NCBI GenBank assembly: GCA_936450465.1 | Contig: OW388296.1 | Span: 29,518,638 to 29,582,637, forward strand | DNA from: Gibbula magus | Lineage: Eukaryota; Mollusca; Gastropoda; Trochida; Trochidae | Direction: 5' to 3' | Length of the DNA: 64,000 nt | Shown here: positions 10,608 through 48,886 of the stretch, piece after piece | Layout of the letters: each line of letters starts with the position of its first letter | Numbering within the stretch: the stretch's first letter is position 1 | Notes under the pieces: generated by a model | Databases searched by the model: none | What the model saw: only the letters and a program-made list of their open reading frames with translations | What the model was told of the DNA's origin: nothing | Program-made: the position numbers and the translations under genes

Positions 10608-11360
10608 CCGGCAGTCTGTAGGGGGATCTCCAGTTCGACCCTCAAATGTTCAGCATTACATGTTCAGCCCTTGGGTCATGTGTAACATATGTGTTACAAT
10701 GCAAAACAGAACATGTTTAAGTGCTTTTAATATAAGAACATTTAATACCGTCACAAGCTAAATCTTCTTTCTTTAATTGGTCATATGACTGATAAATTTG
10801 AACAAAAACATTGTCAACGAGTTAAAGGGAGAATGAATTATTTCACAGGCGTCCACTGCTCGGAATGAATTGTTAATTTAACCCATGTCAGACGTGAAAA
10901 CACTGGGAGTTAGGAGTATTTTTACAATTCCAAAATATTTTCCGTTATATTGGTAAAGATTTTGCAGTGCTCAACCATCGGGTTTGTTACACATATTTAC
11001 GATCGGCTTGAAATTGATTCTTCCTGTCACGTGCGTCCCAATTATTTCACGTTATGCGAGTCGGCTGTCTTACCCTCGCCTTGCAAGTGCATTGTTGCAC
11101 TATCCATGTTCTGCACGTGCTCTTCGCGTTTGTGAAGAAGCGCATTATTCATAATGACAAACAATTTCAAACCGTTGATTTAGCAAGCGAAAGGTTGATA
11201 GTTCGCAACAAAAGCATCAATACTACAAAAAAAACATTCCTCTGGTAGATCCCGAATTCAAAGCTCTAAAACATCACATCCCTCTTAAGTTGGAGAGTCC
11301 ACGTGCAATGATGTCTTGCAAAAGCATCATCCATTGTTTACACAAACGTCATGTGATCAA

Positions 11361-11490
11361 CGCCTGCTGCATTCATTGAATGTGGTAGCCGTTGCTCGCG
11401 CTCCATCTCCGGAATCGAACCCTGATTTCGCGTTACCCGTTGTCGCCATGGTAAGCATAGAACTTACTATCGACAGTTAGTTAAGGCAGT
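11361..11490 (-). pseudogene. 18S rRNA-like pseudogene fragment
   Basis: On the minus strand it matches, from memory, the conserved 18S segment around ACCATGG...AACGGGTAACG, AATCAGGGTTCGATTCCGGA, AACGGCTACCACAT and GCAGCAGGCG. The upstream CTGTCGATAGTA corresponds to the CTTTCGATGGTA region. About one base in ten differs at positions that are nearly invariant in eukaryotes, so this is a decayed fragment of about 130 bp, not a working gene. Confidence 0.85.
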
Positions 11491-12295
11491 AAACAGGGTA
11501 CTGGTATCAGCGTGGGTTACTTATAAGTTTAAATGGGTAACATATATATATGCTATTGATGTGCAAGAGAAATAAAAACCAGCGAAACTTCTAATGAATT
11601 GGTTACTTGCTTCAAATTGCATCAAATCGGAAATACAGATGACTGATTGTTATTTTGTACCAAATATATGTGTTTGATTAAGTTTGATATATGATGTGTA
11701 TGACGTAATCGTTTTTTGATGTGTTGTTTGAGTCACGTGATGTCAAACGTTATGAATGGTGTTATTTTATCGAGAAGTACTGACCGTTGCTAAACATTAT
11801 AATTTTTTAATGCTAGTTTATTCAGTGTGGGGACAATATAAAGGTGAAAGCCGCGATTTCTGATCCAAAACTGGACAATGTTCCGCGGCTGACGCGCGCC
11901 AATTGGCTAAACGTATTTTGGAAACGTACCTATATTAGGCAAAAAGAAAGATGTGGGTTGGTAATGTTTAATAGGTCTTACAACTACTGTGCAAATATAT
12001 GGGACGTGTAATTTTGGTTTTTGCACATGTAAAAGGCTATTGCTATATTTCATTGGAAACCAGTACTTATATATTTGGCGATACAGTATGACTATGCAAG
12101 TCAAGAAAAGTTATTTGAACTTATATCAGAATATCTGGTCTTCCGGCACGTATGAAAGCAAAACAAGATATTATTAAAAGTACTAATTTCACGTTGAGAC
12201 GTTAATCACATGTCATTCTCGTTGTTCAGTACTTCATTTGTTTAGAATGACACAAACATGTTTATACATACATGTATGTACATGTACATGTGAGA

Positions 12296-12630
12296 TTTTT
12301 TCGTGCAGAGTAAGATTTAAACTTATTCAGTCTAACATGCACTGTATATAAAGAAACTCCTCAGCTATGCCGTCTTCAAAGTAACCCAGTATAGTTCTAT
12401 ATGGTAGAACAGGTAATTGAACACCTGACAGGTGGCATGTTTACCACCTGACGTACATGTACTTATATACTGCGTGGAGCATGGCTAGTTATATAATACT
12501 TGTGACTTTATACTGCAAATGGCTGGTAATAACGAACATTTAGAATTGCATAAGGGTACTTTTAAATACGTGTATATAGTTATATTTATGATCACAATAC
12601 ATGCCACTTTTAATGTCCTTCCTTTTAACG

Positions 12631-12670
<40 letters not shown>

Positions 12671-13800
12671 ACAGTAAGGAAAACTGGCAATAGTCACATA
12701 CGGACATGTACGCGTTCCTTCTGACTTATGGACCATCCTAATATTTTAATGATTAACATTAAATATGTAAATGTTATACGGTTCATGCACCATAATACTT
12801 TATCAGTGAATGCTTGGATGATGCTCATATTTTGGTGTTCAGTATATATGCTACAAAGGTTACGAGTAGTTATATACTAGAGTTAAATAGCCCTGGGCTC
12901 CATCCGTGATCTCCGCTTCTACGCATTTATCGTTTACTGATTGATATATTGTTATTATGTTTCCTGTTTACTCATGTATGAACTCTTTATTTTAAACACT
13001 ACATAAAAATCCAATATAATGTTTCGTGCAGAGCAAGATTTAAACTAATTTAGTATGACACATCGTCTATAGAAACTAACGCCGCGCAGGGCTGCTTCAA
13101 ATGTATTTCAAAGTGTAAACTCACTAATTACAGGTGTTTATAGTTGGACAGGTGACAGAAGCCTGGCAGGTGACATGCTAACTAGCTTACGTCCTATACC
13201 TGATATATAGGACACGACGAGCCATGAATATACTTTATACTGGGATAGTTACATACTTAATGTAGATACATGTATATATACACGGCTTGGAGTATGACTA
13301 GTTTCATGTTAACTGCCTATTTATTCATCTAACCTTTGGCATCAATGAAGGTAAAGAATGGCTGTCCTCTCCAGTAACGCCAGAACTGTTGAGACTGTTA
13401 AACTACTCGCACTGAGACAAACTAATAGTAGTAAAACACGTTATACGAACATGTGCACACATGGAAAATATGACCCTGCTTATGTTTGACGTTTCGGTAA
13501 TGAACTTCGTTTATTTTGCCTTCGGCATTTCGTGTGATCTCTTGACATAGCTCCTACGCATTCCAAATTTATTGACTAATTTATTTATTATGTTTCCTGC
13601 TTATTACTATTTGAACTCTGGGTCAATGTTGACAAACAATTGTTTATGTTTACTTCAAATTTTATATTTTATGATTTCAACATTAAAAGTCGAGTTTATT
13701 TAATTACAGGTGTGCTAGGCAGGACAGGTAGGAGAACACCTGGCATGTCACATGCTAACAAATTACGTACATGTACCTTATACTACAACTAATGTAAGGT
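12296..13800. repeat. Degenerate long tandem duplication upstream of gene B
   Basis: Blocks at about 12296-12500, 13020-13320 and 13690-13800 share GTGCAGAG(T/C)AAGATTTAAAC, a GACAGGTGACAG/ACCTGACAGGTGGCAT-type segment, CATGCTAAC and ACGTACATGTAC. The period is about 0.7 kb and divergence is high. No coding potential seen. Confidence 0.55.
12632..12667. repeat. (TA)n microsatellite
   Basis: Uninterrupted alternating TA of about 36 bp between genes A and B. Confidence 0.95.
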
Positions 13801-14113
13801 GACCTGTTTTCAACAAAATTGTAAAATCCAACTTAGGTTAATTTTATTTACTGTATACCTGCGAATATGTTCTTCTTTAATATCGTTAATATCTTTCACC
13901 AAAGTGCCATAAAATAATATGAGTTCGACCAATCTGAGTTAATTTATCAATTAGGGAGAATGTAAACTGAGAACCATAATGCTATTGTCTTTATGGAGGT
14001 TTCCTGTGATGTCTTGACGTTGGTACGCACCTGTTGGTTGGTTTATACTTTCGTGTTTACTCATTGAAATAGCAGTACACATGTGTCAACAACTTTAGTT
14101 TACTACTGAGCAT

Positions 14114-14354
14114 GATGAGTCACAACTTCCAAACGCAAGCCATAACTCTTGCCAGTCTGCATTACTGGCTGATTTAACCCTTGCGGTATTTCCCTCGCTT
14201 TCTTGTGTCGAGGCAGTGAATCGCTGCACTGGAAATGCATAGCGGGCCTGGATTTCTAAACACAGATTTCTTAAGGAAATACTGCAAGGCCTAAATCAGC
14301 CAGTAATGGAGACTGGCAAGAGTTATGCCTTGCATTGGGAAGTTGGATGAGTCA
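14114..14354 (+). mobile_element. 223-bp MULE-like mini-element, copy 1
   Basis: The element spans 14123-14345, starts CAACTTCC and ends GGAAGTTG, with inverted arms of over 50 bp (CATAACTCTTGCCAGTCTGC against its complement). The 9-bp direct repeat GATGAGTCA flanks it at 14114-14122 and 14346-14354. Size and flanks match the second copy at 15019-15241, inserted in the opposite orientation. Confidence 0.92.
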
Positions 14355-14580
14355 TGGGATATATATCTTTTTGAAGGAAGAAATACTTTTGAAAGTACTC
14401 TATACAGGTGAAATATTCAATTTTAAACTTTGACAAAATTTGACATATTTGTTTTGTATAACTTTACTAAATGTGTTAATAATATTTTTAATTCTTTGTA
14501 ATATGTTTGAAAAACATTCCCGACTAGGAATACATTTTTAGAACTACTTTTCTTTATAGTTAACTCAATTATTTGTTTAT

Positions 14581-14741
14581 GTATGGTAAGAACAGGAAGA
14601 TTTTCTGGATAACAATTTCTTTAATGTGAAAATACACGACGTTTCGGAGTACATACAACATCGTGTATTTCACATTCAAGAAGTTGTTATCCAGAAAATC
14701 TTCCTGTTCTTATGTATACCACTTCTAAATGCCCTTTAAAG
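14581..14741. repeat. Palindromic dispersed repeat (AAGAACAGGAAGATTTTCTGG family)
   Basis: Left arm TAAGAACAGGAAGATTTTCT and right arm ending AGAAAATCTTCCTGTTCTTA enclose a centre with ACGTTTCGGAGTACAT. The right flank ACTTCTAAATGCCCTTTAAA recurs, inverted, at 40150-40170. A second copy is at 26127-26303. The CTGATGAAG...CCGAAAC motif in that copy is common at retroelement ends, but the class is uncertain. Confidence 0.75.
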
Positions 14742-15009
14742 ACCTTTATGTATGATATTATAAAATTTATATTTTACTATTTAAATTTGTACATATGTAT
14801 ATATATGCTTATGCTTTTAGGTTAACCTAGTTTAAATGGATGATTTAAGTTGAATGTAAAGTATGAATGGATGAAAATAAAAAGAAATGTAGAAATTATT
14901 ATATGTGTGTATATTTTGGACTATTTGTGTATATTTGTGTTGATTGAAGTCAATGATATAACTATTTATATGTGATATTATTACTTAGCTGTATATACGA
15001 AACATGCAT

Positions 15010-15250
15010 GTCAATGATCAACTTCCCAATGCAAGGCATAACTCTTGCTAGTCTCCATTACTGACTGATTTAGGGCTTGCAGCATTTCCTTAAAAAATCT
15101 GTGTTGAGAAATCCAGGCCCGCTATGCATTTCCAGTGCAGCGATTCACTAGCTTGACACAACAAAGCGAGGTAAATACCGCAAGGTTTAAATCAGCCAGT
15201 AATGCAGACTGGCAAGAATTATGCCTTGTGTTTGGAAGTTGGTCAATGAC
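15010..15250 (-). mobile_element. 223-bp MULE-like mini-element, copy 2 (opposite orientation)
   Basis: The element spans 15019-15241 with the same CAACTTCC...GGAAGTTG ends and the interior reversed relative to copy 1. Flanking GTCAATGAT (15010-15018) and GTCAATGAC (15242-15250) match in 8 of 9 bases. The reading frame at 15135-15341 is a by-product. Confidence 0.9.
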
Positions 15251-17089
15251 ATGTGACGTAGTTGACCCGACTATTCCCCCTGTTGACCCAGTTGTCGCGT
15301 CTCATGGAGTCTGGCATAAATGGGGTATTGAAGCAGTGTAGTGTTGAACCATGTATCATGTCAACCAATTTTATTTTTCCAATTCTTCATTGGTTCCGGG
15401 TATTCTGTTTTAAAATGGTAAATTAAAGGTGAATAATAAACACAACAATTTAAATTCATGTTTAACACGGGCCTTCTAATATCAAATCATAGCAGAAAAT
15501 CTTTGTTTACGAAAGTATTTTGTCTTATGAGAACGTGTCTATTTCATTATTATTTCTTTAAAATATTCAATCATTTACTTTGGTAAACAAAGCTGCAATG
15601 AGTTCCAAGGACGCGTGTTCTCCAGGGTGTGTATACTAATTTGGATGATTGTATAATGTACTTTGAACTGTTCTAGTTGTTGAATGTTTTATATTTGATC
15701 AATACTGATTCTTTGAATAAAACATTTAAATATCTGTTTTGTGTTGTTTAAAAAAAACACCTATACGTTTAAAGGAACAGTACGGCAGAGTCAGTTTTGT
15801 GGAAACGAAACTAAGCATATACTCCTTTTTCACAGGCACTAGACTATAAACACATATATATAATTTTATCTACATTTAATTATCAATAACATATAAAGAA
15901 GGTATGACACGATGGGCCATCTTAGATTCTCGCATATTTCAGGAAAAGGTTAAACTGGTTCCCTTGTTCAATTACGCTTTGTAGGATTCGTAGACTGATT
16001 CTAATTTCCTTTTCCGGGGACATGTGAGAATTCAAACTGGCCGACCGTGTCTCACCATATTCAAATGTTAAACATGTAGATAGTTACGTATACTTATGTC
16101 TGTAAAGTTAGGGTATGGCGCCTTTGTCCCGTTTGTGTATTTACGTATTTAATAACAGTAACATGTTTATTTGAGACATATTTCCTAAAGGGTTATTTTG
16201 GTGAGCATTAGTAGCAAAAAATCATAAATGGGATTTCTGTTTCTAACATTACCAAAACGAAGGCATTAATGAATTTCTGATTTATTAATTGTGCAAAGGA
16301 ATCTAAAACAAACATATTTTAGCAACAGATTATAAATCATAACTTCCAGATAGTTAAGAGATTAAATTTGTTTTATTGTTGACTCCACTCCTGTAGAAAC
16401 CGTTGACGAAAGTCCCATTTTATACGTGCTTCCAAATGAAAAGATCCCTTACATCGATTTTTAACATTTACAGTAAGAGTTCAAGATTCAGAACTTCAGC
16501 ACCTAGCACCTTATTATCTACAGTATACATGTCTAGTGAATAGCTTCATAAGGTTGTCATTTCAGGTTGTCATTGTTGACTCAAATCCTTCGTCTGTTAT
16601 ACATTTTAGGGAATATAATTATAGGTTCATATACAACAAGTTACTAGGATTTCCTTAGATGTGGTTCTGAGTGTATTTCAATCAATCATATACAGACCTT
16701 GTATCATATAACAGAATATGGTTTAGCTGAAACACGCTTGTCTGGAGCAGTTGTAGTAGAGTGTGAAAGGGTGAATGCTAATGGGGTATATCCCTATTTT
16801 TCTGTTACTTTAATGTCAATTTACAAAACAGGATTATATATAAAGATCATTGAGTGTCATTTATGAAAATGCAGTGGAACATTATGTCATTTTGAAGAAT
16901 GAGCTACACCATTTTTTGTTACATTGCGTGAAAAAATGTGCGGGAATACGATTGGACACTTGAGAAAATATTGCATATATACAAATATAAAAAATACAAT
17001 ACAAATATAAAAAATACAATACAAATATTCTTTAATTAATAAATTATCTGTTAACAAGATCATCTTAATACCACTGAGAAACGGAATCA

Positions 17090-17400
17090 TTTAAATTATG
17101 TCTTCTGATTTCAAATATAGTCATTTGGAGCGAATTACAATGTAATTGTAATGGCTTCAAGAAAGTTAATAATGTTGAAAAGAATACGTTTTGGAATGAA
17201 TCGTGTATCGTGTATTAGTGTACCGAGCATATGGCCCAGCTATACTTTTATCATTTAAGTTATGTCTTCTGTATTCATATAGTAATTTGAAACGAATATG
17301 GTGTACCGGCTCTTAAAAATATGATAATGTTAAATGGAAAACGCTTTGGAATCAATCGTGTATCATGGTTTATTGGTGTATCGAGCCCTACTTTTACAGA
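17090..17400. repeat. Tandem duplication, ~155-bp unit
   Basis: TTATGTCTTCTGATTTC and TTATGTCTTCTGTATTC, followed in both by AATAATGTT or GATAATGTT, a GTTTTGGAAT/GCTTTGGAAT motif and AATCGTGTATC, mark two diverged copies (about 17095-17245 and 17258-17400). It lies 250 bp upstream of the gene B start. Confidence 0.7.
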
Positions 17401-17644
17401 TCTGTTCTGAAACACTACGAAATGACAACATATGACATATTCTCGATAACTAAACACTTAAGATGCTGAATAAAACCAAGATAACATCTTAAAACGGCTC
17501 AAGGCATAGTTTAGGTCACGTGACATCTTAATGATTGATTAATAGGTTCGAGCAAGGAAGTCAAAAACGTAAGTGAAAATATGACCGTCGGCACTGCCGT
17601 TTTCCAAATGCAGTACGGAACATAAGCGGCACGTGATCAACACC

Positions 17645-17710
17645 ATGTTGGGGTGGACAAGAGACGCACCGTTTCTTATACTTTGGATTTATTTTTCATG
17701 TTTAATTTCG
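17645..17710 (+). CDS. Gene B exon 1: start codon and signal peptide
   Basis: ATG in context AACACC-ATG; 22 codons ending exactly at donor GTGAGT, phase 0. MLGWTRDAPFLILWIYFSCLIS has an Arg/Asp-containing start and a hydrophobic core, as in a signal peptide. It joins in frame to exon 2. The fit of ATG, hydrophobicity, donor and phase supports it, although it is short. Confidence 0.78.
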
Positions 17711-20700
17711 GTGAGTTTTATTTTAATTTTTTCCCATGATCCAAAATTATAACTTTCCTAACATTGTGATTGAAAGTTTCTAATTTTATGTATTGTTTAT
17801 GTCCATTATAAGAACCGTAACATTGTTTTCCTTTTTAACAAACATCAATAAAGCTTATTCGAAAATTCTGCTCAAACTACAAAATGCATTCATCCTTTGG
17901 AATATATGTTTATACTAAATTGCCACGAGTTTTATTTCGTAAGAATTTTAATATTACTAAGTGTTTTATTGTTCAGGAATAATGTTCATTATATTTTCCC
18001 TAAATGATTACTTCCGCTGTTACAATCATAATCTCATATCAACCTTAACATCATTTGTTGAAATCTTGGTTAAATGATTAAAAAGTGCTTAATTGTCAAT
18101 AATGTTTTACTTTAAAGCGTAAATGCATCAATGATACATGTATTTCATCAGATTGAAGGAGTATAAATATTTGTTCATACCTTGCTCATATGAATATATC
18201 AATTACAAAATAAAACACACGTTAAATATCACGTACAGCCTACTCGACATCGATCTAGTGTATATGTGCATTACGAAACAAATATTTCTGGCGTGCACCT
18301 GCATACGATGAGATTATTGTAACCTAGGTGACACAAGCGTACACCCTCGGCCAAAAGAAACGCCTACTTTATGATCCTTAAAATGAAAGATGCAATAATT
18401 TCTTAAATATAAGTTATGGCGGTCTCCACTTTATGCTGAAGCAATAACGAATATGAAAGTCCATTGAAATCGTGGAAAACTGTGATTCGAGTCAATAACA
18501 TTCATGAAAACCACGCCCAATGAAGACTGCTATTTTCGGTTGATTCACTTGCGCACCTTAACCACGTACATCGGTAGCATCATCACCACTTTAACCCATA
18601 TGCGTGCCTGTATTGTTGCTCGTGGTTGTATGAAAATCTTTTTAAAAGCACTGGTCGAAAACTAAACAATTATTGTTTTCTCATGTCGTGCCTTCTTTCG
18701 TGACATGAACTTCTGAAATTCAAATATATAAATCAGAAATGGTCCAACTTCATTATGTTATAATATTGCTAAACTGTTCATAACAGTTTTTACAATATCT
18801 GATAAGATATCTAGTAGGCGTTTCTTTTGGCCGGGGGTGTATGTCTAAGCATGCCATATAATTGAAATCAGCTTCTGGTCGTAACCTTGCAATGAAAAAT
18901 ATGGGCAGTAAATCTACCATAAAAGACTGCATCTAGTGTTATGCAACGTGAGTTGTGTTCGAAATATACGCAGAAAAAGTTAAGGATCAACTGAAAATGC
19001 AGCGTTAAAGTATTATATGGATCATGATACGAACTGATTGATCCTTTAAATGTTGAACATTTGGTGGTCCTTGAGAATAAATCATAGCATTTGATGAGTT
19101 GAAAAGCTATCAAAGGTTTATTTCAAGGAAAAATAAATCGTATTCTTATACTATGCTTTGAAGAATCATCATCAACTTTGTTTTGTGATGTATTTTATGA
19201 TGCGTTTGAATACACCTTTATATTCCATTCCTTCCAACTAATTCTCAGAGAAAATCATTTTAAAAGAATAGTTTGTTAGTATTTCTTACTCTCCTGGTCC
19301 AGTAACCCAATCGGTTGATTTGTACTGGAGCTATCGCGGAACCCAGCTGCATGGGCTTTGCTTTGCAAGATCTGCTTAACGCCATTGCCCTGAAGATATA
19401 CTATATTTTTATGAGACACTTTAGTGCATGGGTTTGTCATTTTGCCAAATATAACCCACACACAGAGAAACACTTCTCTCAGCTCTACTAAAATAAGCTA
19501 CATTGTATAGGAATTGTCATTTCGTTAACAGTGGTCTGGCACATCCAGGGTTCTGCTTGCAAGTTCAGAAAGTCAAAGTCTATAGTTAATGTAAATATGA
19601 ACATTAAATATTATTTAAAATGTTAATAACGCATCACTTTATTCGATGACAGAAACAGGAAGGGCGATATAAATCACAAACAGGAGAGGGGGTCGCTCAT
19701 TTTGAGATGAATTATGTTATTTCACAATAACTGAACATATACACCTATCAAATGCCTAATGGCAAAACCTAAGACGGCCTCTTTCTCAATATATTTTTAC
19801 ATTAATCAATGACTTATTTGCAATAACACTGATCATATCGATAAAGTTTCCACACTTTCATCAGCCTGGCACCAAGGAGGGTATCCTTGAGATGAATATG
19901 AAGTTAAAGATGTTAATGAAAGTATTGACACTTAACTTAACAAAATCGATGACACATTTCAACAGAAATGGAAATGATAAAAGACTGACTTTTGAACTGT
20001 TTTCAAAGCCTAGCACCACGTCCAATATCCTTCAGAGTAAGAGTAATAATGCAATGAAACTACCTACAAATGACGTATTGATACTAATGTTTGACGTGTA
20101 TTCAATTCTAATCAAAGAAACAGTTTAAAAAAAAAAAAGGTATTCAAACACATGTGTGAATAAAATTTCAACGCATTTTCACAGCCGAGCACCTCAGCCG
20201 GTACCCTAGAGATCCGGTTCGACCAGTATGAAGTTACCTACAAGAGCGGGGTTCACCATGATGGCGGTGACCCCTCCAGCGTCTCCATGTCCCCAGATCC
20301 GGTATGGGAGGAGATCACCCCTGCCCCTGCTACTTCCAACATCACCACCACCCCTTCCCCCCTCCCCCCGGCCTGGCAGACTCCACCCACGTGTACTTCC
20401 CCCGCCAGATACAGATTCCTTCTCTGTATTGACAGAGTCGGGTAAGTCATGTACATTGTTTTGTTTTAAGTGTTAATGTCTAATGTCTAATTTCAATGTC
20501 TAAGTATTGCCATGAAGACACTATTGTTGGATATACAACTTCTTTATATTCCATAGGCGACGTTTCGATATAGGTTGACAAAGATAAAGCATATTTTCTA
20601 TTGTTGGCAATGCCGTTGCTTGACAACATCATTACCAACGTCGGAACGTTATATAGCATAACTACTGTCTTCATTCTTCCTCATCCGAACTCAAAGATGT

Positions 20701-23700
20701 AAAGATGTAAGTTTTTCTAGTCAAAACGAGTATGCATTTAGTATTTTGTACTGAAAAAAAATCACCATTGTATCACATACCATGCGTTTTGACCCTCACG
20801 GTTTAATATATTCATGTATTCTAATCTCCTTGATTCAGTTTCCTCACGCTTTATAATATCAATATGTTTAATATATTCTAGGGTAAATGTATCCCACCTT
20901 GTTTTACATCCATATTCCATCTGATAGTGAAGTAAGCATATGCTTTGAAAAGTCATGTATCTTCACATTAAATATTTTTTTTACAGAAAATATTATTTTT
21001 TAAGTATACATTTGTATAACAATAATATCAAGCGTACGCTTCTCAATTGTATTTTATTTGAAGACAGAAATACAGAAAGGGAAAAACACCTAAAATTTCT
21101 AATGACGTGAAATAGTAAACTTAGCTATATGTAATATAAATTTGAACGAACCACTTGTAATGACGACATTGAGGTGAGGTGAGTTGGTGTTTAACGCCGC
21201 TTTCAGGAGTATTTCACTTATATCGCGGCTGCTGGTATTATAGTCGGGAGAAAGTCCGCAACGCCATGTGTATATGCATTGCGGTGAAACCTGCGAGCAT
21301 CGGCTGGAACAAGCGAACCATGGGTGGTACTACGCTGAAATTCAGTGTAGCATTGCACCCAAACCTTACTGCGTGTAGAACAGTTCTCTACTGCATACAA
21401 AGTTGCCGTGTCCCTGGCGAGATTCGACGACATTGAAAATGGGTGTTGAACTCCCAGTCAACCTGTACGTTATTACTTATTATACCATGTCAGCTTCAGT
21501 AAACATAACAGAATATTAAACCCTATTGATCACCCTACCATATGTTTACTCCTTCTTATATTCCAAGAAGGTCAAACCGTCTTGGTGTTGTTATTAGCCC
21601 GGGGGACAACCTTTTGATTAAGTCAGCACTTGATGAACGTGAAGTTGTTTATTAAATATCTAAAAGTAAACAAGGCATTATTCAATATTATTCATATATC
21701 AGTTCTTCCTATGATGTTTATGATTAAATGTGGCAGACATACATTGAAAGGCACTTGTATTGGCAATGTTTTTATCATTTAATGAGAGAAAATTAATGAG
21801 ATACTGTTTATTATTGTCTTATCTCATACATACAAAATTGGCATATGGCAAGACAATAAAATTGTATGAGCCGCCAAAGGGCTACAATACACACATACAG
21901 TAAAATGACACTAACATTACATGGGGATATTTCGTATAGGTTGAATAGCACTATACACAATTGGTAGAATTGTTAATGTTTGTCAAATCATTTATGTAAT
22001 ATATAAACAATATTCTTTTTTATATTGTTGTTCAGATATGTTGTATGTTGGTTACTATCTTATGCCATTTCTAAGTACAGTAATCGTTGTGGATAATATG
22101 TATTCGGGGTAATGTTCTAAATGTCGTTAACAAATTAAAAGTATAAAGCAAATTCAAGAACACTAAAACTTTTACTGTCTTCAGATACCTTTATTTGGTT
22201 TGGGACACAGACTATTGAAAATTGTTATGTTTATAAATTATATCTTGTTAAGTTTAGACATTTAACATTATTTCGTTACATCAGCCTCTGTTTAAGGTCT
22301 CCAATAAGATTACTTGTATTTGCTCATTTGACATACAACAAATGGAGGGAAAATGCTTTAGAGCCGAGAACGTCATTTGCAAATTATTACAAAACCCTTC
22401 TGGTGAGTCCAATACAAGGACGAAACCGGGCAAGCAATATTTAACCAAAAACCTGGTTACACCCTTTCCATATAATGGACAAACACGTGTTGTATATTGT
22501 ATTCCTTACAATACAATGATGTTGCCGGACCTCGACAGTCCCTCTACTTTAAAAAAATATATTTATACAACATATGACGTCAAAACATGATATATATGTA
22601 CTTCCTTGTTCAAGCCTAAACCTTCTATTTCTATGCACAGCAGACAACAACTAAATGCAGCAATACAAACAACAATAAACCTTCGAGTGGCTCAAAGGCA
22701 ATATATGTTCCGAAGGGTTAACTGTTTAGTGAGAGTTAAGAGCGAACCGTTTCATTTATGGCTTGAAAGATTATCTTATAATAGTTTATGGCTTTAAATA
22801 ACGTCATGGGTGTGTCATTTTATTGAATTGTCCTCCATTAAAAGTTTTCCCCAATTGTTCAGATATCTACATTTAAAAGAATACTTATCAAATAAGTGTT
22901 TATATGTAACTAGAATATTTAAATGTCAATAGCAAAAGTTGTAAATGTACATTAACTTTTAGCCCTGTACATTATTTCGTTTTAGGGATCGTAACACTAG
23001 TACTCTTATGTTCCCTCGACGTTTCTATTTATTCAATGTTCCCATTTATTTCACATGTGGTACTCTCAATGAATGTTACGACGTATCATCTTTCAACTCC
23101 ATGTGCATCGAGAAATGTTCCCATTGATTAGTAAAATGGTTTTCCACTTGATCTCATCTACTATCATTAGTGACTGTTTCCACGGCTCATCTGTTAGCCC
23201 CATGTGTGCACAATGTGGCCATTTGTTAGTAAAACGGTATTTCACTTGATCTGATTTAGTATCCTCATCGAATGCCCCCACTACTCATGTATTAACCCCA
23301 TGTGTACCTATCAATGTGTCCAATTTATTAGTTAAACGGTATTTCACTGATCCACATTAAGTATTCTCATCGAATGTCTCGACGACTCATTCATTAACCG
23401 AACGTGCACCAATCAATGTGCCAATTTATTAGTTAAACGGTATTTCACTGGATCTCATTTAGTATACTCGATGAATGTTCCCACGCCTCATCTGTTAACC
23501 CCTTGTTCTCGTCCAGGGAGGCCCAGGAGTGCGGCCTGGGGCGGGAGGACACCGGACTGACCCAAGTTTCCCAGAGTCTTGTGGGGCCAGACGGGGAGGG
23601 GCATGACATCGTCATGTTCGACAACATGCTGCGGGGCATGCCCAACCCACTGACCAACCCCCTGCGGTACAATGTTCCTAGTTGGCCGGTGAGAAGCTGA

Positions 23701-26700
23701 TTAGTGTATTTTATGGATATTATGTAATACTATTCCGTTTTACCAATTCAGCTAAATTTGCGTTTGTTTCTACTTATATTTTGTGTATAATTTCATTTAT
23801 CTTATTTTTAAAAATAATTTTAATATTTCTCTTGAACTTAATTTTAAGTTGCATTTTTAATTCATCCTTAGAACTACATGGAACTGAAGTGCAATACATT
23901 TAATTTATATTGACCATAAAAGAATTCCCCTTTCTCTCAACTATCAAAAATGCTGTTTACACTATTTCCTACCTGATATAAGTCTTGAATGAATGTGAAA
24001 TAGATATAACTTTTAATGCATTCATTAACAAAACCTCAATTAAAGGCTTTTCCGGAGAAACCAATTTTTATAACTGGACTTTGAAAGTTAATCCCCTTCA
24101 AAGAACTATAAATTATTTCTGATTCCATGAAAATTATTCTTCCAAAACATGTTTTATTTTAACTTGGTACACAATTCTTAGTAAGCACTTTCATATTTAT
24201 GACCTCTGACATTAGTTTGTACATCTATGGTTATATCCTAACTTGTTACATCTTGTTACATCTTGTTACATCTGTTACAGTAAGGAACATCCTAGAATAA
24301 ACTGATCTTGTCCAATTCACCATCGCATATAATCCGATATGTATTGTATGTCTATTAATATTGGTACACGTATTTTCGTCGATACAGAATGGTACATTGA
24401 TTACCACTATTGCAGGGTGCGATACAGGTCACGTTCTACGTGCAGTGCTGCGGAGCTGATGACACGGAGCGCTGTGAGGAGAAGATATCTGGAGAACTGG
24501 CGGTCAAACCAGTCTCACCACAGAGTCTACAACCAACCAGAATCAACATCACAAACCAAGACGGGTAAACACTTGATCCAATCAGAGAAAATATGCATCA
24601 TAACATATTTATATTCAAACTTATCCATATGATTTACTTCATGGTGATACGTCTTTTGAAGAGGTCAGCTAGATACGGTATTGACGGTCAAGATCCATCC
24701 TTGTCTTCTGTCAATAAGATGATTTTGAGGTGCAAAACATGAGGTACATTTTTTAGGTGCAATAGCAAACCTTTGACAAATGCAACAATTAAGTGGAATC
24801 AAAATCGACTTTATATCAAATATTTCTTTCATTGAATCAATAATAATTATTTGATCCATAACAACGTGGTAGTAAAACGTAATTTGGTTAATTACTCAGC
24901 CTCAGAAGATATTGCAGTGTAATATTCTCAATATTAATAAAAAAAAATATTTCACTTGTGTAACACCACCGTATGTATGTGATCACAGAGCAAGTACGCC
25001 ATCCTAATGGTACCTGTCTCGCGGAAATATTCATCAAACTGTTGGCTACTTCGATTCCTTCATATGAACGAGTCTGTAGACGGAAGACTTACCCTCCTTC
25101 AATAAAGTACCACTCTTATGAACTCGTTTGTTACCAAATCATAACTGTATTAAATTTTATGTCGATTATCATCCTTAATTACAGTCTACATGTACTCATA
25201 TAATGCCCCGTATGTCTGACGTCACATCTAGAGAAAATTCTATTGGTGACGTGTCGAACCAATCATCGCCATTTTGTCCGTTCTTATTTATGATGACAAC
25301 AACCAATATCATGTATAAACTTTTGTAAAGGGTATTCCTCAACACCATCTTCTCCAGATTTAGCTTTTATGTCATCTACCATATGTCGATTTTAAATAGA
25401 GCGAAATCGCCTTTGAGCCTGTGTTGGAATACTATTTTACGAACTTTGACCAACAGTATCATCGAATGAAATTCTAGTCAAAGACGAAGTCAGATGATGC
25501 TTCCTGCTCATGGTTCACACTTCCTAGTATTAGTATTGGCGAATGTACGGTAACATTATTGCAGTGTTTCAAGTAGATTGACGATGTTAGACGTGAACAG
25601 GATGCAGAATGCAGAACCCGGATGTTAAACTGTTTACACAATGAAAACGACACGTGGGAATGTTGTTACCTGTCAAGTGAACTATCGTTGTTCTTGCATT
25701 GTGACACCCTGAGACATTGAGTCAACATGTTCATTGTTACAGTTGTAACTTTACCTTCTCCAAGATATAAAATACATGATGACAATAAGGAAAGTAATCT
25801 TTCCCGACAATCAAGTGCGAAAAACATACTACCCGACTGAAAAATTGTCCAGTGCAGAATCTTATGTGGTTGAAACTAGTTAAAATGGTTAATTTAACAG
25901 AGTGCATATATATGTGCAGAATGGTTAAACAATTGTGCCATAGTGTCGTGATTATAATAAAAGGGAGCAGAAATTCTGCAGATATTCACAAACAAATATG
26001 ATTTAAACAATATTTTATTTTTATATAACATATAACAAACATGAAAGTTTGAAAAGTACACTGGAAAAAGCATTTTAGTAAACATGATACAATAGCCTTT
26101 AATAAGGCTTCTCCATATATAATGTTCATAAGAACAGGGAGATTTTCTATGATAACAACTGCTTTAATGTGAAAATACAAGATGTTTCGGAGAATATACT
26201 ACACCCTGATGAAGAAGTGAGTATATACTCCGAAACACACTGTACTATTTTCACATAAAAGAAGTTGTTATCCAGAAAATCTTCATGTTCTATGTTCTTA
26301 TGTCAATTCTAAATACTCTTCAAATACCTATACAATATAAAAAGACCTCCCATTTTTCAGGACTGATGTATTGAAATTCCACAGTATTATCTATATATTA
26401 CTTAAATGCATTATCAACAATACATGGAAGTTCATTCTGAAGATTATTCGTTTAAATGACCACGCCCCATTGTCCCATTGATTCCACAGAGCCAGCATGG
26501 TCCTGTCAGTGACCCTGCGGTGTTCCCAGAACTTCTACGGCGACAACTGCACAACGTTCTGTCGGGACGACAACCAGAACCGCAGGGTGTGTCACCCAGA
26601 GACTGGACAACTCGTCTGTCGACCAGGTGAGTCCACGTATGGTAGCTTAACACGGACAAAATACAATCTTCATAGTCGGTAAGTCGATTTGGAGTTTATC

Positions 26701-29700
26701 GTCGCTTTCAAGAATATTACATTTCAATGCGACGGCTATTTTTATTGCAGAGAGAAAGTTCGCGATATCATAATTGTGTTTAATATCCTAATCTATAATA
26801 TCCTGATACTTGATGGTACTGCACCGAATTTCAATTCAACATTTTCAAGAACGTTACTGCATGTAAAATTGGAGTTACAAATCATTAGATTATGAAATAT
26901 CATTCAAATGAATGTGTTTCTATTGTGTCTTCAAAACATAAAACTCGCTGCAATTTCTGTTGTGTAATTACTGTTACATCTGCAATATGTAAACTTGTAC
27001 TATGTGTAATGTAATGTAAGGGCGTGATGTGAAATACGATAATTATCTGTCAATAAAAAGTAAACATTTTAACTGAAAACAATCCAACATTTTGATCTTG
27101 TGCAATTATGGGAATGTGTTCTGCATGCAACCTTAAGGTCACGTCATACAAGTTGTAGTAATCGTTTAGATTCCGATCAAGATCGCAGGACAAATAATTT
27201 GATAAAGACATCCAATTAACCCCGTGTTGTAAACAATAATTATCTATCATGACATGGACATTTCGTATTATTCATATTCATTGAATTACTCAGGGCAATA
27301 ATTCTCTGTTAAGATCTCTGATAACAATAATACAAATATAAAGCAAAAAAAGTTCGGGTCGCTTTTTAAAGAACATCAAAGGTCCATGTATACTACTGCA
27401 GAAGATCCGTTACCAAAAAATAAGCATATATTCCTATTTCAGTCAATACGTACGACGAAATGTATGTTATAACGATAGATACAAATGGTCTGACTGCCAA
27501 AAATGCAAACACAACCACAATGATTTAAAACCTTAGCCAAAGAAATATAGGTCGTGTCGCGGTTGGAATAAATCGTTACTAAATACTAAATAGCCTTTCT
27601 CTTCCACCTTCCAAATGTACTTTGACCCCGAAAGTGCAGGGCACCTCCCAACACTATTACAGGTCGAAATTAGGTTTTAATTTATAAACATTAAGTTTTA
27701 AATACAAACTATTAAATAAAGTGATAAAATTGTTAGTTAATGATAAATTTTACCCTCTATGTTGCAGGTTTTGCGGGCCCCACCTGCGAGGACGATGTAG
27801 ATGAATGTAAGCTGGGGGTTTGTCTACACGGGAGCACCTGCAACAACATGCCCGGGGGCTTCACGTGCGCATGTCTCACCGGAAGTTCAGGTGCGTTCCT
27901 TTCGCTTCCCTTGGAATAATGAAATATGAGTTCCCTGGAATTGATTAATCTATCTTATAATCTTTGCATGGACTTAAAACTATTTAAATATTAAGAACAT
28001 TTACCCTGATATTTTCAAATATATATGAAATATGTTTGAAAACAATTCATTTATCTATTTGCACATATCCTCATATGTAAACACCCTCGCTCCCTAGATG
28101 GTAATGGTAACTTACAAACTCCAAACATCGCGTCTTCAGGTCGCCTGTGTCAGCAACGTGTAACCACATGTGACAGCACACCCTGTATCAATGGCGGCAC
28201 GTGTGAGGAGAATCTAGACTCAGTTGACTTCCGGTGTGCGTGCCCACCTGGTTGGAAGGGAAAACAGTGTCAACTTGTCGATGACGTCACTACCTCTACC
28301 ACTCAAGAGCCTGCTGCCATTGGCCATATAAAAGGTCAGAGCTAATTAAGTTTTCAAATGGTTTATTCTGATGTTATGGCTTAGTGAAAGTCGAGTATCT
28401 TTTGAATTGAAGACTAGCGTATGCATGCAGATGGCACAAAATTAACAGAACTGGATACTCGGATAACATATGATTACTTTCTGATTCCTAACTTTATTGT
28501 AACAAATTTTACTGTCGATCTCCATATTTTCCTGCATAAATTCTCTTAAAAGCTGCAAATAACCATCTCAGATGTCTTTCAAATAAATTTATCATAAACC
28601 GTTTTAAAAAATGATGCATTTTTTGTCATTAATGTTTATTTTAGTTATTCTGACTTTCAATTAAATATTTTGAAAAAAATAAGTTAGGGACATTGGGATT
28701 GGGTTTTTTAATCAATGAATGAATTGATTATTTAATATTTATGATTTCAAAAACTATTTGTGTCTATATAGCTAGTATATAATGTATGTATGGCCACGTA
28801 AAAATCCAATAATGTAAATATGTATATACAGACTAACCTCCTATGTGAATATTTTCAGACAAGGAGGACATACCAACAGCAGAACCATCTGTAAGTTGAC
28901 CCAAACAACATAACATTTGTACATGTACAGACACGGAAACGTTATTAAAGGGGCAGTAGCACGTTTTTTCGCTCAAATAAGTTGATGACATGTATTTGAA
29001 TAATAATGTCACTAACAGTAAAACACCCCTTCTCTTTGCTGAAAATCATTTTAAAAAGGAGTGTACATGCTTCCATAAAGCCATGGGAATCATTTTTGTC
29101 ATTAAAAATAATAATGTGTTCACAATAAAATGGCTGCCATGCAATTTTTGCTTTATACGCAACATAGTTTTTACAACTACAGATAATTGGTTTTTGTAAT
29201 AAGATGTTTGATCCTCTAAAGTAAATATAAATGACATAAACTATCATTTTAAATGGGAAATTTGAAAAAATAAAATTTCCAAAAAACGTGCTACTGCCCC
29301 TTTAAGATAGGTGCATTTCCCCTATTGAACACATTCATTAAAGCTAGTCATTGACCCGGGTGTTTAAACTACTAATATTTGATACCAAAGGTGTATTAGG
29401 GGGGTTCCATAAACATGGTTGCACACATAACGGTATAAATGGTCGATGTTTCCCTTTATCTACATATGTATTATGGAGAGTATCTACAAAGGAAGCCTGT
29501 CGTATAAGTTTCACAAAACGAGTGTTGTAGTAGCCGATCGAGAGCGAGTTATACATTAATTTTCAAAAGCATCGTATTAAAAAAAGTTATCAATTAGTTT
29601 CTATATGAATTTTGTAAAAGGTAATCAGGAGACAGCCAAACAATTATTGGTATCTTTACGTTAGTATCATATGTTCTGTACGGTCACATACGGTACCTAC

Positions 29701-32012
29701 GAGAACTTGGGCAAATGTAGTCTATCATTTAGCCACAGAAATGAATTATTTCCAAAAAAAATAAAAAAAATAAAATAAATAAAAAAAATAAAAAGGAGCC
29801 TCTGAGATGTGTTCATTTCCAGAAACTGAGCTCAGAGTCTTGTTGTAGACTTGCCTAGGCGCTTTAAAAAGTAAGGGGTCTGGATTACAGACTAGGGCAA
29901 ATGCAACGGCTTCTCGGCAAAAATGCCATAAGTACAAATACGTTTATGGTAAATATGACACTAGTTATGTTTCACTACATTATAACGTGTTTCACTATCC
30001 CTGTAGGATGACTGGACCATCTGGTATGTGGGTATCGCTCTCCTCGCCCTCACAGTGATCGTCATCCTCATCCTCATCATCTGTGTCGTCTGGACCAGTC
30101 GCAAGTACGTACCTATTGCTATTCCACATATAGAAATAGTAAGAAAGGTAGTTAGAGATTGAAGATAATCGTCGTTTCCCTACATTAACATCGTTATGAC
30201 TGTCTTGAAATCAGACCGTCTTGGTCAAGCTGTCATACTTACAAACTGCGTTCTTAAATAATAGTTTAATTTGCATTCATACGACATGTGCACTTTACAT
30301 TTCCTTCATAGATTACCTCGATTTTCTGTCTCCCCAGGCGACGATACCACATAAGTGAGCTGGCTAAACCTGATCCCCCGATCATCCCTGTAGCTGGTGT
30401 GGCTCCAGTCTCCCACTTCGACAACATGGTCTACTTGCATGATCCTGAGCAGATTGACCTTCAACCTCCGACCTCTAGCCTCTACCAGCGCACCCTGGTG
30501 GCAGACGACCCCTACACCAACCAGCGCCCACTATACCAGCACCGGATCGAACCGGATACTCCTTTTGAAGCAGACGACAATGACACGTGCTGTGGTGTGA
30601 CCAGACGAGAGGGCGGACCACCTGCCAGAGAGAACGTGTATTCCACGTGGGGAAGTCTAGGAGGACCTGATGAAGCAGCGTATGAGTCAATCACTCCTCA
30701 AAAAGATGAAGAGAAGAAAAAGGCTGGAGACATTTCAGAAGGTTCTCACACCTACCGAAGAGAGAGTGACCCGGTCCCAAGCACACCGTCTCGAAAAGAG
30801 AGTGATTTGTTGTTTGATTTTACAAATTTCAATCCGTTTGAAACTAAACCACCAGAATCAGACATTGAGGCGCCAAAAGAAACTGATACGAAAGATGTTC
30901 CAAGTCTCCCTAAAGATAACTATGTTCCTTATGTACCGGACGATAAAGCAGAAATGTCAACCTCATATCGACGTGAAAGTGATCCAGTTCCTTACTTCGT
31001 TCTTGAGGACTGTCAACAAAATTATGACTCGGTTCCAACGTTACAGAAAGATGATCCTTCAGATTCAAGCGAAAACCAAATGTCAGTTGAAAATCCCGAA
31101 TATGCAGATCATCGCCCAGAATGTGTAGGCCCAGTTTATCCAGCGCAGACGAATCCCTTCCTATGTAACCCCCAAGAACCGGAGACCGACGACCGTCGTT
31201 CTTCAGTCCCGTCCGTCGACAGCAACATGGTTGGAGACCGCAGACCTCCAGCCATTTCTAGCGTCAGCTCCATGGGCAGCAACGTTATTGGTGACCGCAG
31301 ATCATCCGCTGTGTCTAGCGTTGGTTCCGTGGGCAGCAATGTTATCGGTGATCGCAGACCCTCTGCCGATTCCAACAATAGTTCCACGAACAGCAAGACT
31401 TCATCAGAACTTAGCGATCCCTACTACGATTCAGTCTCGCCCTATGCAAATACACAACAACTATTTTCACAAAATTCAACACCTTCCATTGAGCCAGTTA
31501 ACGCACCAAATACCTCCTCCAAGAAACCGTGTCCAACTCCTCGAACAAGCATCATAGTCCCTTTAAACTCAGATCCTGAAGAAGAGAACTCAGACACAGA
31601 AGACAATCATGCAAGAGACTCACCATCTGCAAGTAATGAACATCTGTTCCCAAGGAAGGATTCTATTCCAGAAGGGTATAGTCCCTTCTCAGAACAACGT
31701 TCAACGATACAGCCGAAAATTAACAAACCACTTGAAGACGACCCTGTAAACAGAACAGTCTTCCTTCCAGAATATCCAATTCCGAGAAATAACTCCGCTC
31801 CAGTTTTGGTGCCTTACCGGAAGATCAGTATTCCAGTGGTTGAGGATCCGCCCCCGGACTGGCGGAAGAATAGCGAGATCACTGTACCTTACATCGGAAA
31901 GAGGCGAAAGAGCGGTGATCTCCTGGCTCGAACTACTTCCGGTAGTGTTCCCACAGCATGGCCGGCAGAAAACAGCCGAAAGAAGAAATATTCTTACGAT
32001 CTTTCAAAATAA
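17645..32012 (+). CDS. Gene B: DSL-family Notch ligand with two EGF repeats and a very long cytoplasmic tail
   Basis: Ten exons: 17645-17710, 20185-20441, 23517-23688, 24416-24564, 26490-26626, 27768-27890, 28140-28334, 28859-28890, 30007-30104 and 30338-32012. All junction phases agree; 2904 nt encode 967 residues plus stop. Order: signal peptide (about 1-22), MNNL-type N-terminal domain (about 26-215), DSL domain (about 225-267), two EGF repeats (about 268-344), short linker, membrane helix (about 383-406), cytoplasmic tail (410-967). DSL proteins bind Notch on neighbouring cells through the MNNL and DSL domains. Two EGF repeats is few (LAG-2-like), and the tail is several times longer than the usual 100-200 residues of Delta or Jagged. 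The start ATG has A at -3 and directly encodes the signal peptide. Delta versus Jagged class cannot be decided; there is no VWC-type Cys-rich region. Confidence 0.9.
17711..20184 (+). other. Gene B intron 1
   Basis: 2.5-kb intron between the signal-peptide and MNNL exons. It holds the TA-flanked mini-transposon at 18340-18841; otherwise I see no exon or structured repeat. Confidence 0.6.
18340..18841. mobile_element. TA-flanked mini-transposon (Tc1/mariner-like ends)
   Basis: Left end TA-CACCCTCGGCCAAAAGAAAC and right end GTTTCTTTTGGCCGGGGGTG-TA form inverted repeats of about 27 bp with two or three mismatches. A TA dinucleotide at each edge fits the Tc1/mariner target. The 0.5-kb interior has no transposase frame, so it is a non-autonomous element. 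Confidence 0.8.
20185..20441 (+). CDS. Gene B exon 2: MNNL domain, first part
   Basis: Acceptor TTCACAG, donor GTAAGT, phase 0 in and 2 out. SAGTLEIRFDQYEV matches the opening strand of the Notch-ligand N-terminal (MNNL/C2) domain. CTSPARYRFLLCI matches its C-x-x-x-F-x-x-C-L pattern. Between them is a Pro/Thr insertion with an N-glycosylation sequon (NIT), longer than usual. Confidence 0.85.
21162..21436 (-). mobile_element. 5'-truncated tRNA-derived SINE
   Basis: Read on the minus strand, 21425-21173 starts inside the tRNA box B (TCGAATCTCGCC), follows the SINE body seen at 61.5 kb (GGTTTGGGTGCAATGCTACA, CCACCCATGGTTCGC) and ends with GCGGCGTTAAAC. An 11-bp direct repeat GACGACATTGA flanks it (21162-21172, 21426-21436). 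The open frames over it are by-products. Confidence 0.92.
23072..23510. repeat. Diverged ~100-bp tandem repeat next to a splice acceptor
   Basis: TATTAGTTAAACGGTATTTC-type cores begin near 23131, 23229, 23331 and 23432. Each is followed by a CACTTGATCTCAT-like stretch and an AATGTTCCCACG...CTCAT...TTAACCCC segment. The last unit runs into the pyrimidine tract and CAG acceptor of gene B exon 3 (23517). Confidence 0.85.
23517..23688 (+). CDS. Gene B exon 3: MNNL domain, middle
   Basis: Acceptor GTCCAG, donor GTGAGA, phase 2 in and 0 out. It gives GEAQECGLG, the third MNNL cysteine, and ends NVPSWP, which corresponds to the F-x-W-P strand seen in Delta/Jagged. The sequence is GC-rich compared with its surroundings. 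Its acceptor lies at the end of a ~100-bp tandem repeat array. Confidence 0.85.
24416..24564 (+). CDS. Gene B exon 4: MNNL domain, end
   Basis: Acceptor TTGCAG, donor GTAAAC, phase 0 in and 2 out. GAIQVTFYVQCCGADD parallels the GTFSLIVEAW strand of Notch ligands; INITN carries a glycosylation sequon. It leads into the DSL exon as in the family. Confidence 0.82.
24565..26489 (+). other. Gene B intron 4
   Basis: 1.9-kb intron; it contains the palindromic repeat at 26127-26303. No exon or other element recognised in 24.6-26.1 kb. The preceding intron (23689-24415) holds only a short TTGTTACATC tandem (24243-24278). Confidence 0.55.
26127..26303. repeat. Palindromic dispersed repeat, copy 2
   Basis: CATAAGAACAGGGAGATTTT at the left and its complement ending GTTCTTATG at the right. 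The centre contains CTGATGAAGAAGTGAGTATA and two CTCCGAAAC motifs facing each other. Same family as 14581-14741. Confidence 0.75.
26490..26626 (+). CDS. Gene B exon 5: DSL domain
   Basis: Acceptor CCACAG, donor GTGAGT, phase 2 in and 1 out. It holds the first five DSL cysteines: RCSQNFYGDNC, TTFC, RVC and QLVC; the sixth is in the next exon (GFAGPTC). Spacing is 8-3-9-8-8. The family norm is 8-3-11-8-8, so loop 3 is two residues short and lacks the usual Gly-His. NFYG stands for the conserved N-Y-Y-G. This is the domain that defines Notch ligands. Confidence 0.92.
27768..27890 (+). CDS. Gene B exon 6: last DSL cysteine and EGF repeat 1
   Basis: Acceptor TTGCAG, donor GTGCGT, phase 1 in and out, 123 nt, the same size as the gene A exon at 214. 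DDVDECKLGVC is of calcium-binding EGF type; CLHGSTC carries the O-fucose consensus. The repeat closes with GRLC in the next exon. Confidence 0.9.
28140..28334 (+). CDS. Gene B exon 7: EGF repeat 2 and linker
   Basis: Acceptor CTTCAG, donor GTCAGA (weak), phase 1 in and out. EGF: CDSTPCINGGTC...CACPPGWKGKQC, with the O-fucose consensus. A Thr-rich linker (DDVTTSTTQEP) follows. The next exon joins in frame, which supports the weak donor. Confidence 0.88.
28859..28890 (+). CDS. Gene B exon 8: 32-nt linker micro-exon
   Basis: TTTTCAG before, GTAAGT after; phase 1 in and 0 out; encodes DKEDIPTAEPS. Both splice sites are strong and it is the only piece that converts phase 1 of exon 7 to phase 0 of exon 9, which supports it despite its size. 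Confidence 0.75.
28945..29305 (+). mobile_element. TTAA mini-transposon, copy 2 (reference copy)
   Basis: TTAA on both sides, inverted ends AGGGGCAGTAGCACGTTTTT, 361 bp, no transposase. The TTAA target is typical of piggyBac-type (or Kolobok-type) elements. The interior includes a TGTTCACAATAAAATGGC segment shared with the other copies. In the gene B intron before the transmembrane exon; the frames over it are not genes. Confidence 0.93.
30007..30104 (+). CDS. Gene B exon 9: transmembrane segment
   Basis: Acceptor CTGTAG, donor GTACGT, 98 nt, phase 0 in and 2 out. DDWTI then a 24-residue helix (WYVGIALLALTVIVILILII CVVW) and basic TSRK. Same length and phases as the gene A transmembrane exon. 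Confidence 0.92.
30338..32012 (+). CDS. Gene B exon 10: long Ser/Pro-rich cytoplasmic tail
   Basis: Acceptor CCCCAG; one open frame of 1675 nt to TAA, residues 410-967. The tail is rich in Ser, Pro, Asp and Glu and looks disordered. It contains YRRESDPVP twice (about 549 and 620), three GDRR(P/S) units spaced by Ser/Val-rich runs (about 696-754), and further basic-x-S sites (RKESD, RKDSIP, RNNSAP, RKISIP, RKNSE, KRRKSG). NPF occurs at about 575 and 682; NPF binds EH-domain endocytic adaptors in other proteins, and Notch ligands must be endocytosed to signal. No known Delta/Jagged tail motif or PDZ end was recognised (it ends YDLSK). Confidence 0.93.
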
Positions 32013-33010: not shown

Positions 33011-33050
33011 AGAGCTCATACTCTGGCTTATTTGCTTAAGATAAGCTCAT

Positions 33051-33411
33051 TTAAAGGGGCTGTAGCACGTTGTTTGCAAATTATATTTTTTCAAATTTCC
33101 CATTTATAATGATAGTTTATGTCATTTAAATCAACTTAAGAGGGTAAAACATCTTATTACACAAACCAATTATCCGTAGTGGTAATAATGATGTTGCGTA
33201 TAAAGCAAAAATTGCATGGCGGCCATTTTATTGTGAACACAATTTATTATTTCGAATTACAAGAACGATTTCCTAGGGTTTACCGAACCATGTTCACTCA
33301 ATTTCAACTTGATATTTCGAAGAGAGAAGGGTGTTTTACTATTGGTGACATTATTTTTCAAATACATTTCATCGACTTATTTGAGCAAAAAAACGTGCTA
33401 CTTCCCCTTAA
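33051..33411 (-). mobile_element. TTAA mini-transposon, copy 3
   Basis: Same family, reversed orientation, TTAA at both ends, end sequence AGGGGCTGTAGCACGTT. It sits 60 bp after the gene B poly(A) signal. The 84-aa frame over it is not a gene. Confidence 0.93.
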
Positions 33412-33449
33412 ATATTTCAAATACAAATGTTGATGAAATAAGGATACAT

Positions 33450-48256: not shown

Positions 48257-48290
<34 letters not shown>

Positions 48291-48300
48291 GCTGCTGCTG

Positions 48301-48346
<46 letters not shown>

Positions 48347-48386
48347 CACTACTACTGCTGCTGCTGCTACTACTACTACTACTACC

Positions 48387-48422
<36 letters not shown>

Positions 48423-48615: not shown

Positions 48616-48665
<50 letters not shown>

Positions 48666-48837: not shown

Positions 48838-48886
<49 letters not shown>

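Follow-up and report, generated by a model that had tools for sequence, protein, structure and literature searches.

Gene B, predicted on the forward strand of a 64,000-nucleotide stretch of Gibbula magus DNA (here called the window; C8:29518638-29582637 of the 1.47-Gb genome searched), comprises 10 exons between window positions 17645 and 32012 and would encode a protein of 967 aa, in which a small outer part with a DSL domain and two EGF repeats precedes a much longer cytoplasmic tail. Comparison with two abalone proteins, together with splice signals and shuffled sequences, supports the gene structure, the orthology, the conserved islands and the motif excess of the tail as well as the lack of motifs that are canonical for Delta, all at the level of predicted sequence. 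We assign a probability of about 0.45 to the reading that the product of gene B is a divergent membrane protein of the Delta-like kind, with a tail of low complexity acting as a phospho-regulated docking platform.

The predicted product is composed of a signal peptide (~22 residues), an N-terminal part, the DSL domain, two EGFs, a single transmembrane (TM) helix at residues 383-406 and a tail of 560-561 aa, with an outer part of 360 residues (Table 1). The earlier sequence-only reading, which began with the DSL exon at 26490, took in the 3' half of the gene; the start lies further upstream, as abalone proteins used as tblastn queries revealed three further exons upstream of the DSL exon (exons 2 to 4) and a motif scan supplied a signal-peptide exon. 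Human ligands used as queries for possible MNNL exons gave no clear match. Exon 2 is flanked by AG/GT borders, and the exons for the DSL domain, the EGFs, the TM helix and the tail have GT/AG borders and phases in agreement. Signal peptide and TM helix were called from the sequence only. The scan for the signal-peptide exon covered positions 3000-20184 and provided five candidates, the best of which is similar by eye to the start of the Haliotis rufescens protein, MFGSRDARLLKCWIYLCSVITL; exon 1 is nevertheless the least supported exon of the prediction. The overall architecture and the orthology with the abalone proteins are well supported by the sequence comparisons.

Table 1. Predicted exons of gene B and associated features (window positions)
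Feature	Position	Strand	Evidence or remark
Exon 1, signal peptide (MLGWTRDAPFLILWIYFSCLIS)	17645..17710	+	donor gtgagt; top of 5 motif-scan candidates
Exon 2, first part of N-terminal (C2/MNNL-like) region	20185..20441	+	tblastn P0003: 62.8 bits, E 1.5e-12, 41% identity
Exon 3, N-terminal (C2/MNNL-like) region	23517..23688	+	tblastn P0003: 81.6 bits, 60% identity
Exon 4, end of N-terminal (C2/MNNL-like) region	24416..24564	+	tblastn P0003: 59.3 bits, 51% identity
Exon 5, most of DSL domain	26490..26626	+	Pfam DSL 27.7 bits, cut-off 24.2
Exon 6, DSL end and first EGF (calcium-binding type)	27768..27890	+	Pfam EGF_CA 31.4 bits, cut-off 27
Exon 7, second EGF and stalk start	28140..28334	+	Pfam EGF 39.4 bits, cut-off 21.5
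Exon 8, 32-base stalk exon	28859..28890	+	splice borders and phase
Exon 9, transmembrane helix (residues 383-406)	30007..30104	+	69-72% identity to abalone proteins
Exon 10, cytoplasmic tail and stop codon	30338..32012	+	566-codon open frame; related tails in P0002, P0003
57-bp tandem repeat in tail exon, 19-aa units with DRRxS or DRRPP	31220..31386	+	Tandem Repeats Finder
Candidate poly(A) signal AATAAA	32986..32991	+	pattern scan

Several other elements of the window deserve mention. A multi-EGF gene on the same strand (gene A, 114-9882) lies upstream of gene B and may be a tandem relative of it. Eight EGF stretches were recognized in it, seven of them in the frame 1012-1917 and the other at 114-350, followed by a region rich in Thr (2168-2707) and, within 9766-9882, a probable transmembrane exon. 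The gene extends leftward beyond the window with its 5' part, and the adjoining 2.5 kb on that side consists largely of N. Similar sequences, recognized by eye, occur in opposite orientation in intron 8 of gene B (28950-29300) and in its 3' flank (33050-33420), and perhaps represent a dispersed repeat. Positions 47660-49310 are occupied by triplet repeats of great length, which give rise to long frames on either strand; the GC skew is strong (-0.525 in 48001-50000).

A giant tail encoded by one exon behind only two outer EGFs was confirmed for gene B: the last exon has 558 codons including the stop, and the tail amounts to ~561 aa. Its long frame is more than a chance event: the longest stop-free run in 500 shuffles of positions 30312-32012 was 223 codons versus 566 observed, the remaining two frames of this region contain 8 and 49 stops, and the GC content of the 2-kb window with the last exon is 47%, compared with 34% and 31% in the flanking windows. 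The last exon very probably belongs to gene B, since two abalone proteins share the layout with a long tail. An origin from another gene, which the sequence-only reading had named as the observation that would speak against it, is unlikely given that both abalone proteins continue across the same junction from the TM helix into a related tail. The idea that the tail is common to other genes was also rejected, because a search of the own genome with the tail frame (nine candidates scored, E<=1) matched only gene B itself. The tail of gene B had no match in Pfam (E<=1), NCBIfam (E<=0.1) or the PDB sequences (E<=1), and in a tblastn comparison of gene B with other DSL loci, run with low-complexity masking, the best 40 matches all missed the tail.

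The TM helix plus tail (residues 165-752 of the first assembled piece) as a query recovered two abalone proteins with E values of 1.2e-53 and 2.6e-50, both carrying the database name 'uncharacterized protein': P0003 from H. rufescens (LOC124133799, 785 aa) and P0002 from Haliotis asinina (isoform X2, 781 aa). They are 46-47% identical to gene B and share with it the domain order, the two EGFs and a long tail with common islands. However, their tails are shorter (436 aa in H. asinina and 378 aa in H. rufescens), the repeat units in the tails differ from those of gene B, and the deposited sequence of P0002 is without the signal peptide that is predicted for gene B. A search with the whole of P0003 (7987 candidates scored) listed 19 proteins including P0003 itself and P0002; the remaining 17, which cover 9-32% of P0003 and contain EGFs and in part a DSL domain, were not taken as orthologues.

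Conservation among gene B and these two orthologues, both from abalones, is unevenly distributed. Invariant residues number 77 of 192 in the N-terminal part (a value lowered by the missing start of P0002), 30 of 45 in the DSL domain, 45 of 78 in the EGFs, 17 of 24 in the TM helix and 123 of 561 in the tail, and the stalk is poorly conserved (9/35). Within the tail the invariant residues are clustered, with 69 in the first 151 positions, 16 in the next 220 and 38 in the last 190. The resulting islands include FDNMVYLHDPE, LYQR.L..DDPY.NQ, PD.PFE, YRR.SDP, K.PCPTPR and GKR..S.DLL, and a further one, PAENSR.K..SY..SK, is located at the C-terminus. A profile of the aligned tails gave no match at E<=10; it says nothing about the spread of the tail, because the abalone proteins themselves were not recovered.

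With respect to the outer part, the Pfam DSL model scored above its cut-off of 24.2 bits for gene B (27.7 bits, exon 5 alone), P0003 (35.7 bits) and P0002 (34.7 bits), and exon 5 is 67-69% identical to the abalone proteins. The Notch-contact residues of the Jagged1 DSL domain are described as F199, R201, R203 and F207 (PMC3415683). When they were mapped by hand on the DSL alignment with the help of a Jagged1 sequence, the equivalent of F199 and one Arg proved to be retained in gene B and both abalone proteins, and F207 and the FGHY loop were lost in all three. The pattern CRPRxxxFGHYxC accordingly occurs in none of the three proteins of this type, which instead have CRDDNQ, a short stretch and RVC. 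No DOS-type EGF was seen in gene B with the Pfam models EGF_CA and EGF: the EGF following the DSL domain fits EGF_CA and the second one is ordinary. Because the DSL domain lacks this loop and no DOS-type EGF was seen, binding of Notch by gene B appears doubtful.

The N-terminal part is possibly related to the C2/MNNL domain of the ligands. By eye it can be aligned with MNNL, and P0003 is similar to PDB sequences across the DSL domain and its flanks (solved DLL1, DLL4, JAG2, Delta and others), with some matches, among them those to DLL1 and JAG2, reaching as far as the C2 end. Pfam MNNL did not appear among the matches (E<=1) of P0003 and P0002. Weak support came from our own MNNL profile, built from three database and three human sequences, which detected P0003 with an E value of 0.0017 (best of 300 shuffles, 0.029) and P0002 with 0.097, a value that two shuffles surpassed; gene B was not among the 12 matches listed. 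An hhalign comparison with MNNL resulted in a probability of 20.7% (P 2.2e-4), compared with 0.5% (0.11) for reversed sequences. The AF2 model of P0003, based on six sequences, had a pLDDT of 34.5, which is too poor for a fold search.

The DSL genes of the same genome provide an internal standard. A PF01414 search with an E limit of 0.001, in which 150 of the 305 candidates were scored, found at least 16 places, the DSL exon of gene B not being among them, and 11 of the 16 were aligned with gene B and the abalone proteins; those left out were the three places in a 655-aa frame at C4:8.61 Mb, C4:8669065 and C4:88836419. The CRPRxxxFGHYxC pattern is present in 3 of these 11, i.e., the likely Jagged and two likely Deltas. 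Since the loop is missing in the other eight, its loss is common among small DSL genes and not specific to gene B. The likely Delta (C3:40.47 Mb) and Jagged (C3:12.49 Mb) were named from their DSL and EGF pattern, without a tree. For this Delta, a tail of 157 aa was predicted with the best acceptor (181 and 184 aa with two others); it carries NIQN close to the membrane and terminates in ATEV. The Jagged has a predicted tail of 115 aa with NEQN near the membrane and an EVIV end. In both, NxxN is located at tail residues 17-28. At the second likely Delta (C6:73.23 Mb) the frame ends in a hydrophobic C-terminus without a tail, and a GPI-type end is possible; early termination has been given as an explanation for a mollusc Delta2 (He et al. 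2021, PMC8166818). At C4:8.61 Mb, the three DSL places alternate with EGFs in one open frame, and a small DSL locus with two EGFs in one frame is situated on the contig of gene B, ~240 kb downstream (C8:29789001-29795000).

The tail of gene B and those of its orthologues are rich in R[RK]xS, a site of PKA-type (basophilic) kinases. Ten copies are found in gene B, seven in H. asinina and eight in H. rufescens, against shuffle means of 0.51, 0.47 and 0.41, respectively, and the observed count was reached in 0 of 2000 shuffles in each case. Only three sites are aligned in all three tails; most positions shift, and they lie in repeat units that are not the same in gene B and the abalones. Tails of Delta-like proteins from the database have one copy (P0011, goby) or none (P0010), as do the own-genome Delta (one in the first 112 tail residues) and Jagged (none). 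The 14-3-3 pattern RxxSxP occurs six times in gene B (shuffle mean 0.56) and three times in H. asinina (0.39; 12/2000 shuffles), and is not in excess in H. rufescens (one copy vs 0.37; 632/2000 shuffles). The tandem repeat in the tail exon corresponds to two Tandem Repeats Finder rows (31220-31360 and 31269-31386) and coincides with gaps in the abalone rows of the alignment.

Tyrosine motifs are kept in place, as YxNQ and YE[SA]I are aligned in all three tails; YxxPhi is read as an AP-2 motif and YxN as a GRB2 motif. Their total numbers are close to the shuffle level in gene B, H. asinina and H. rufescens, with 6, 1 and 1 copies of YxxPhi (expected 4.2, 2.2 and 2.1) and 2, 1 and 1 copies of YxN (expected 1.4, 0.9 and 0.7). 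NPF is present in two copies in gene B and absent from either abalone tail. The hexapeptide PCPTPR is aligned and identical in all three tails and fits PxxxPR, which has been tested in another context as a CIN85 SH3 site (PMC2833206). Gene B has neither the near-membrane NxxN nor the ATEV/EVIV ends that are present in the own Delta and Jagged, and NxxN is aligned in none of the three tails (tail positions 391 in gene B, 168 in H. asinina, 316 and 330 in H. rufescens). NxxN near the membrane is described as the Neuralized motif and as likewise absent from mammalian DLL4 and JAG2 (PMC12678834), and a Mindbomb N-box and C-box have been described for ligand tails (PMC11887331).

From these traits we infer binding partners, phosphorylation, disorder of the tail and the direction of signalling as follows. 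Gene B would be a single-pass membrane protein that is shared with abalones and belongs to the short, divergent 'Delta-like' members of the DSL family, with its small head (C2/MNNL-like region, DSL domain and two ordinary EGFs) facing outward. Basophilic (PKA-type) kinases would phosphorylate the many R[RK]xS sites of the tail, which could then be bound by phosphoserine readers such as 14-3-3, the invariant PxxxPR could bind CIN85/CD2AP-type SH3 domains, and AP-2 and GRB2-type adaptors are possible partners of YE[SA]I and YxNQ. The kinase state would set the surface level, the endocytosis and the signalling back into the bearing cell, and would replace the Neuralized and PDZ motifs of an ordinary Delta as the means of control. 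A more far-reaching version, tentative and on balance rather unlikely, is that a DSL ligand was turned round in one sea-snail lineage: it would have lost its loop for Notch contact as well as the endocytosis and PDZ motifs of the Delta type, and a tail several times longer than usual, with many repeated basophilic phosphosites and adaptor motifs, would make it a receptor-like protein or a scaffold with signalling into the cell bearing it. The original proposal of a Notch ligand with an additional signalling or scaffolding tail thus survives in part. The two-EGF DSL protein with a giant one-exon tail stands, whereas the designation as a Notch ligand is doubtful, as the loop, the near-membrane NxxN and the canonical ends are missing and the EGFs after the DSL domain are ordinary; the conserved islands and the R[RK]xS excess lend indirect support to the proposed role of the tail.

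Other explanations differ in what they make of the head. The layout of signal peptide, DSL, EGFs and TM helix, the similarity of P0003 to solved ligands and the retained F199 equivalent and Arg would all suit a working Notch agonist, whose head binds and pulls Notch and whose tail is an enlarged endocytosis module that replaces Mindbomb/Neuralized docking. The bilaterian DSL contact sites are likewise described as unconserved in the sponge, and the proteins are still treated as Deltas (PMC3482393). We nonetheless regard an agonist as unlikely, because the CRPRxxxFGHYxC pattern is found in none of the three proteins of this type but in 3/11 own-genome DSLs, a DOS-type EGF was not seen and NxxN is not conserved. 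The loss of the loop from a DSL exon that is otherwise 67-69% identical to the abalones, together with the retained tail islands, is in line with a receptor or adhesion protein that acts independently of Notch, in which the DSL head has been put to a new use and the tail transmits signals inward. This explanation still has to name a partner, however, the head could bind Notch weakly or in cis, and the loop is also missing in eight of the 11 own-genome DSLs compared, so that its loss is not specific; we consider it less probable still than an agonist.

The tail itself could be largely without a function. Its low complexity and lineage-specific repeats could reflect drift, and a mostly drifting, disordered sequence with a function in a few short stretches and a length that varies by repeat expansion would account for the different tail lengths (560, 436 and 378 aa), the tandem repeats and the scarcely conserved middle (16/220). 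The invariant blocks near both ends and the maintenance of 7-10 R[RK]xS copies despite shifting positions make this quite improbable, and the docking platform on a divergent Delta-like protein is the reading that we favour.

If this reading is correct, a conserved DSL member with a long motif-rich tail, but without the Notch-contact loop and the usual motifs for endocytosis and junction docking, would allow reverse signalling by DSL proteins to be tested directly and would offer a starting point for the numerous small, divergent DSL genes of molluscs. That DSL tails are diverse is not new in principle, since the lophotrochozoan DSL genes are reported to be expanded and diverse (PMC8166818) and sponge Deltas to have divergent tails with differing motif sets (PMC3482393). 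He et al. screened 138 lophotrochozoan DSL genes, with Haliotis discus hannai among the species (PMC8166818), and an orthologue of gene B may be contained in their gene list. The titles and abstracts listed by literature searches revealed no DSL protein with an island-conserved tail of this length that lacks the Delta motifs.

Among known systems, the short ligands of the C. elegans LAG-2 type resemble gene B in combining a DSL domain with few EGFs, but have a short tail. The likely Delta and Jagged of G. magus share with gene B the DSL domain, EGFs and a TM segment and differ in the CRPRxxxFGHYxC pattern, the near-membrane NxxN, the ATEV/EVIV ends and their much shorter tails. The claimed contrast with known ligands holds: according to a review, ligand tails measure ~100-150 aa and have roles mainly in endocytosis and in docking at junctions (PMC1965462), and the predicted tails of the own Delta and Jagged have 157 (181-184) and 115 aa. 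A related description is found in a Platynereis paper, which defines 'Delta-like' proteins by a signal peptide, MNLL, DSL, fewer than seven EGFs, a TM segment and an ICD, and Delta by at least nine EGF repeats (PMC5356439). With its two EGFs gene B falls below this minimum for Delta and agrees with the 'Delta-like' proteins in layout and small EGF number, the differences being a tail that far exceeds those of the Delta and Jagged examined here and an N-terminal domain that Pfam does not recognize in the abalone proteins; under this definition, gene B would be 'Delta-like' if the MNLL domain is accepted.
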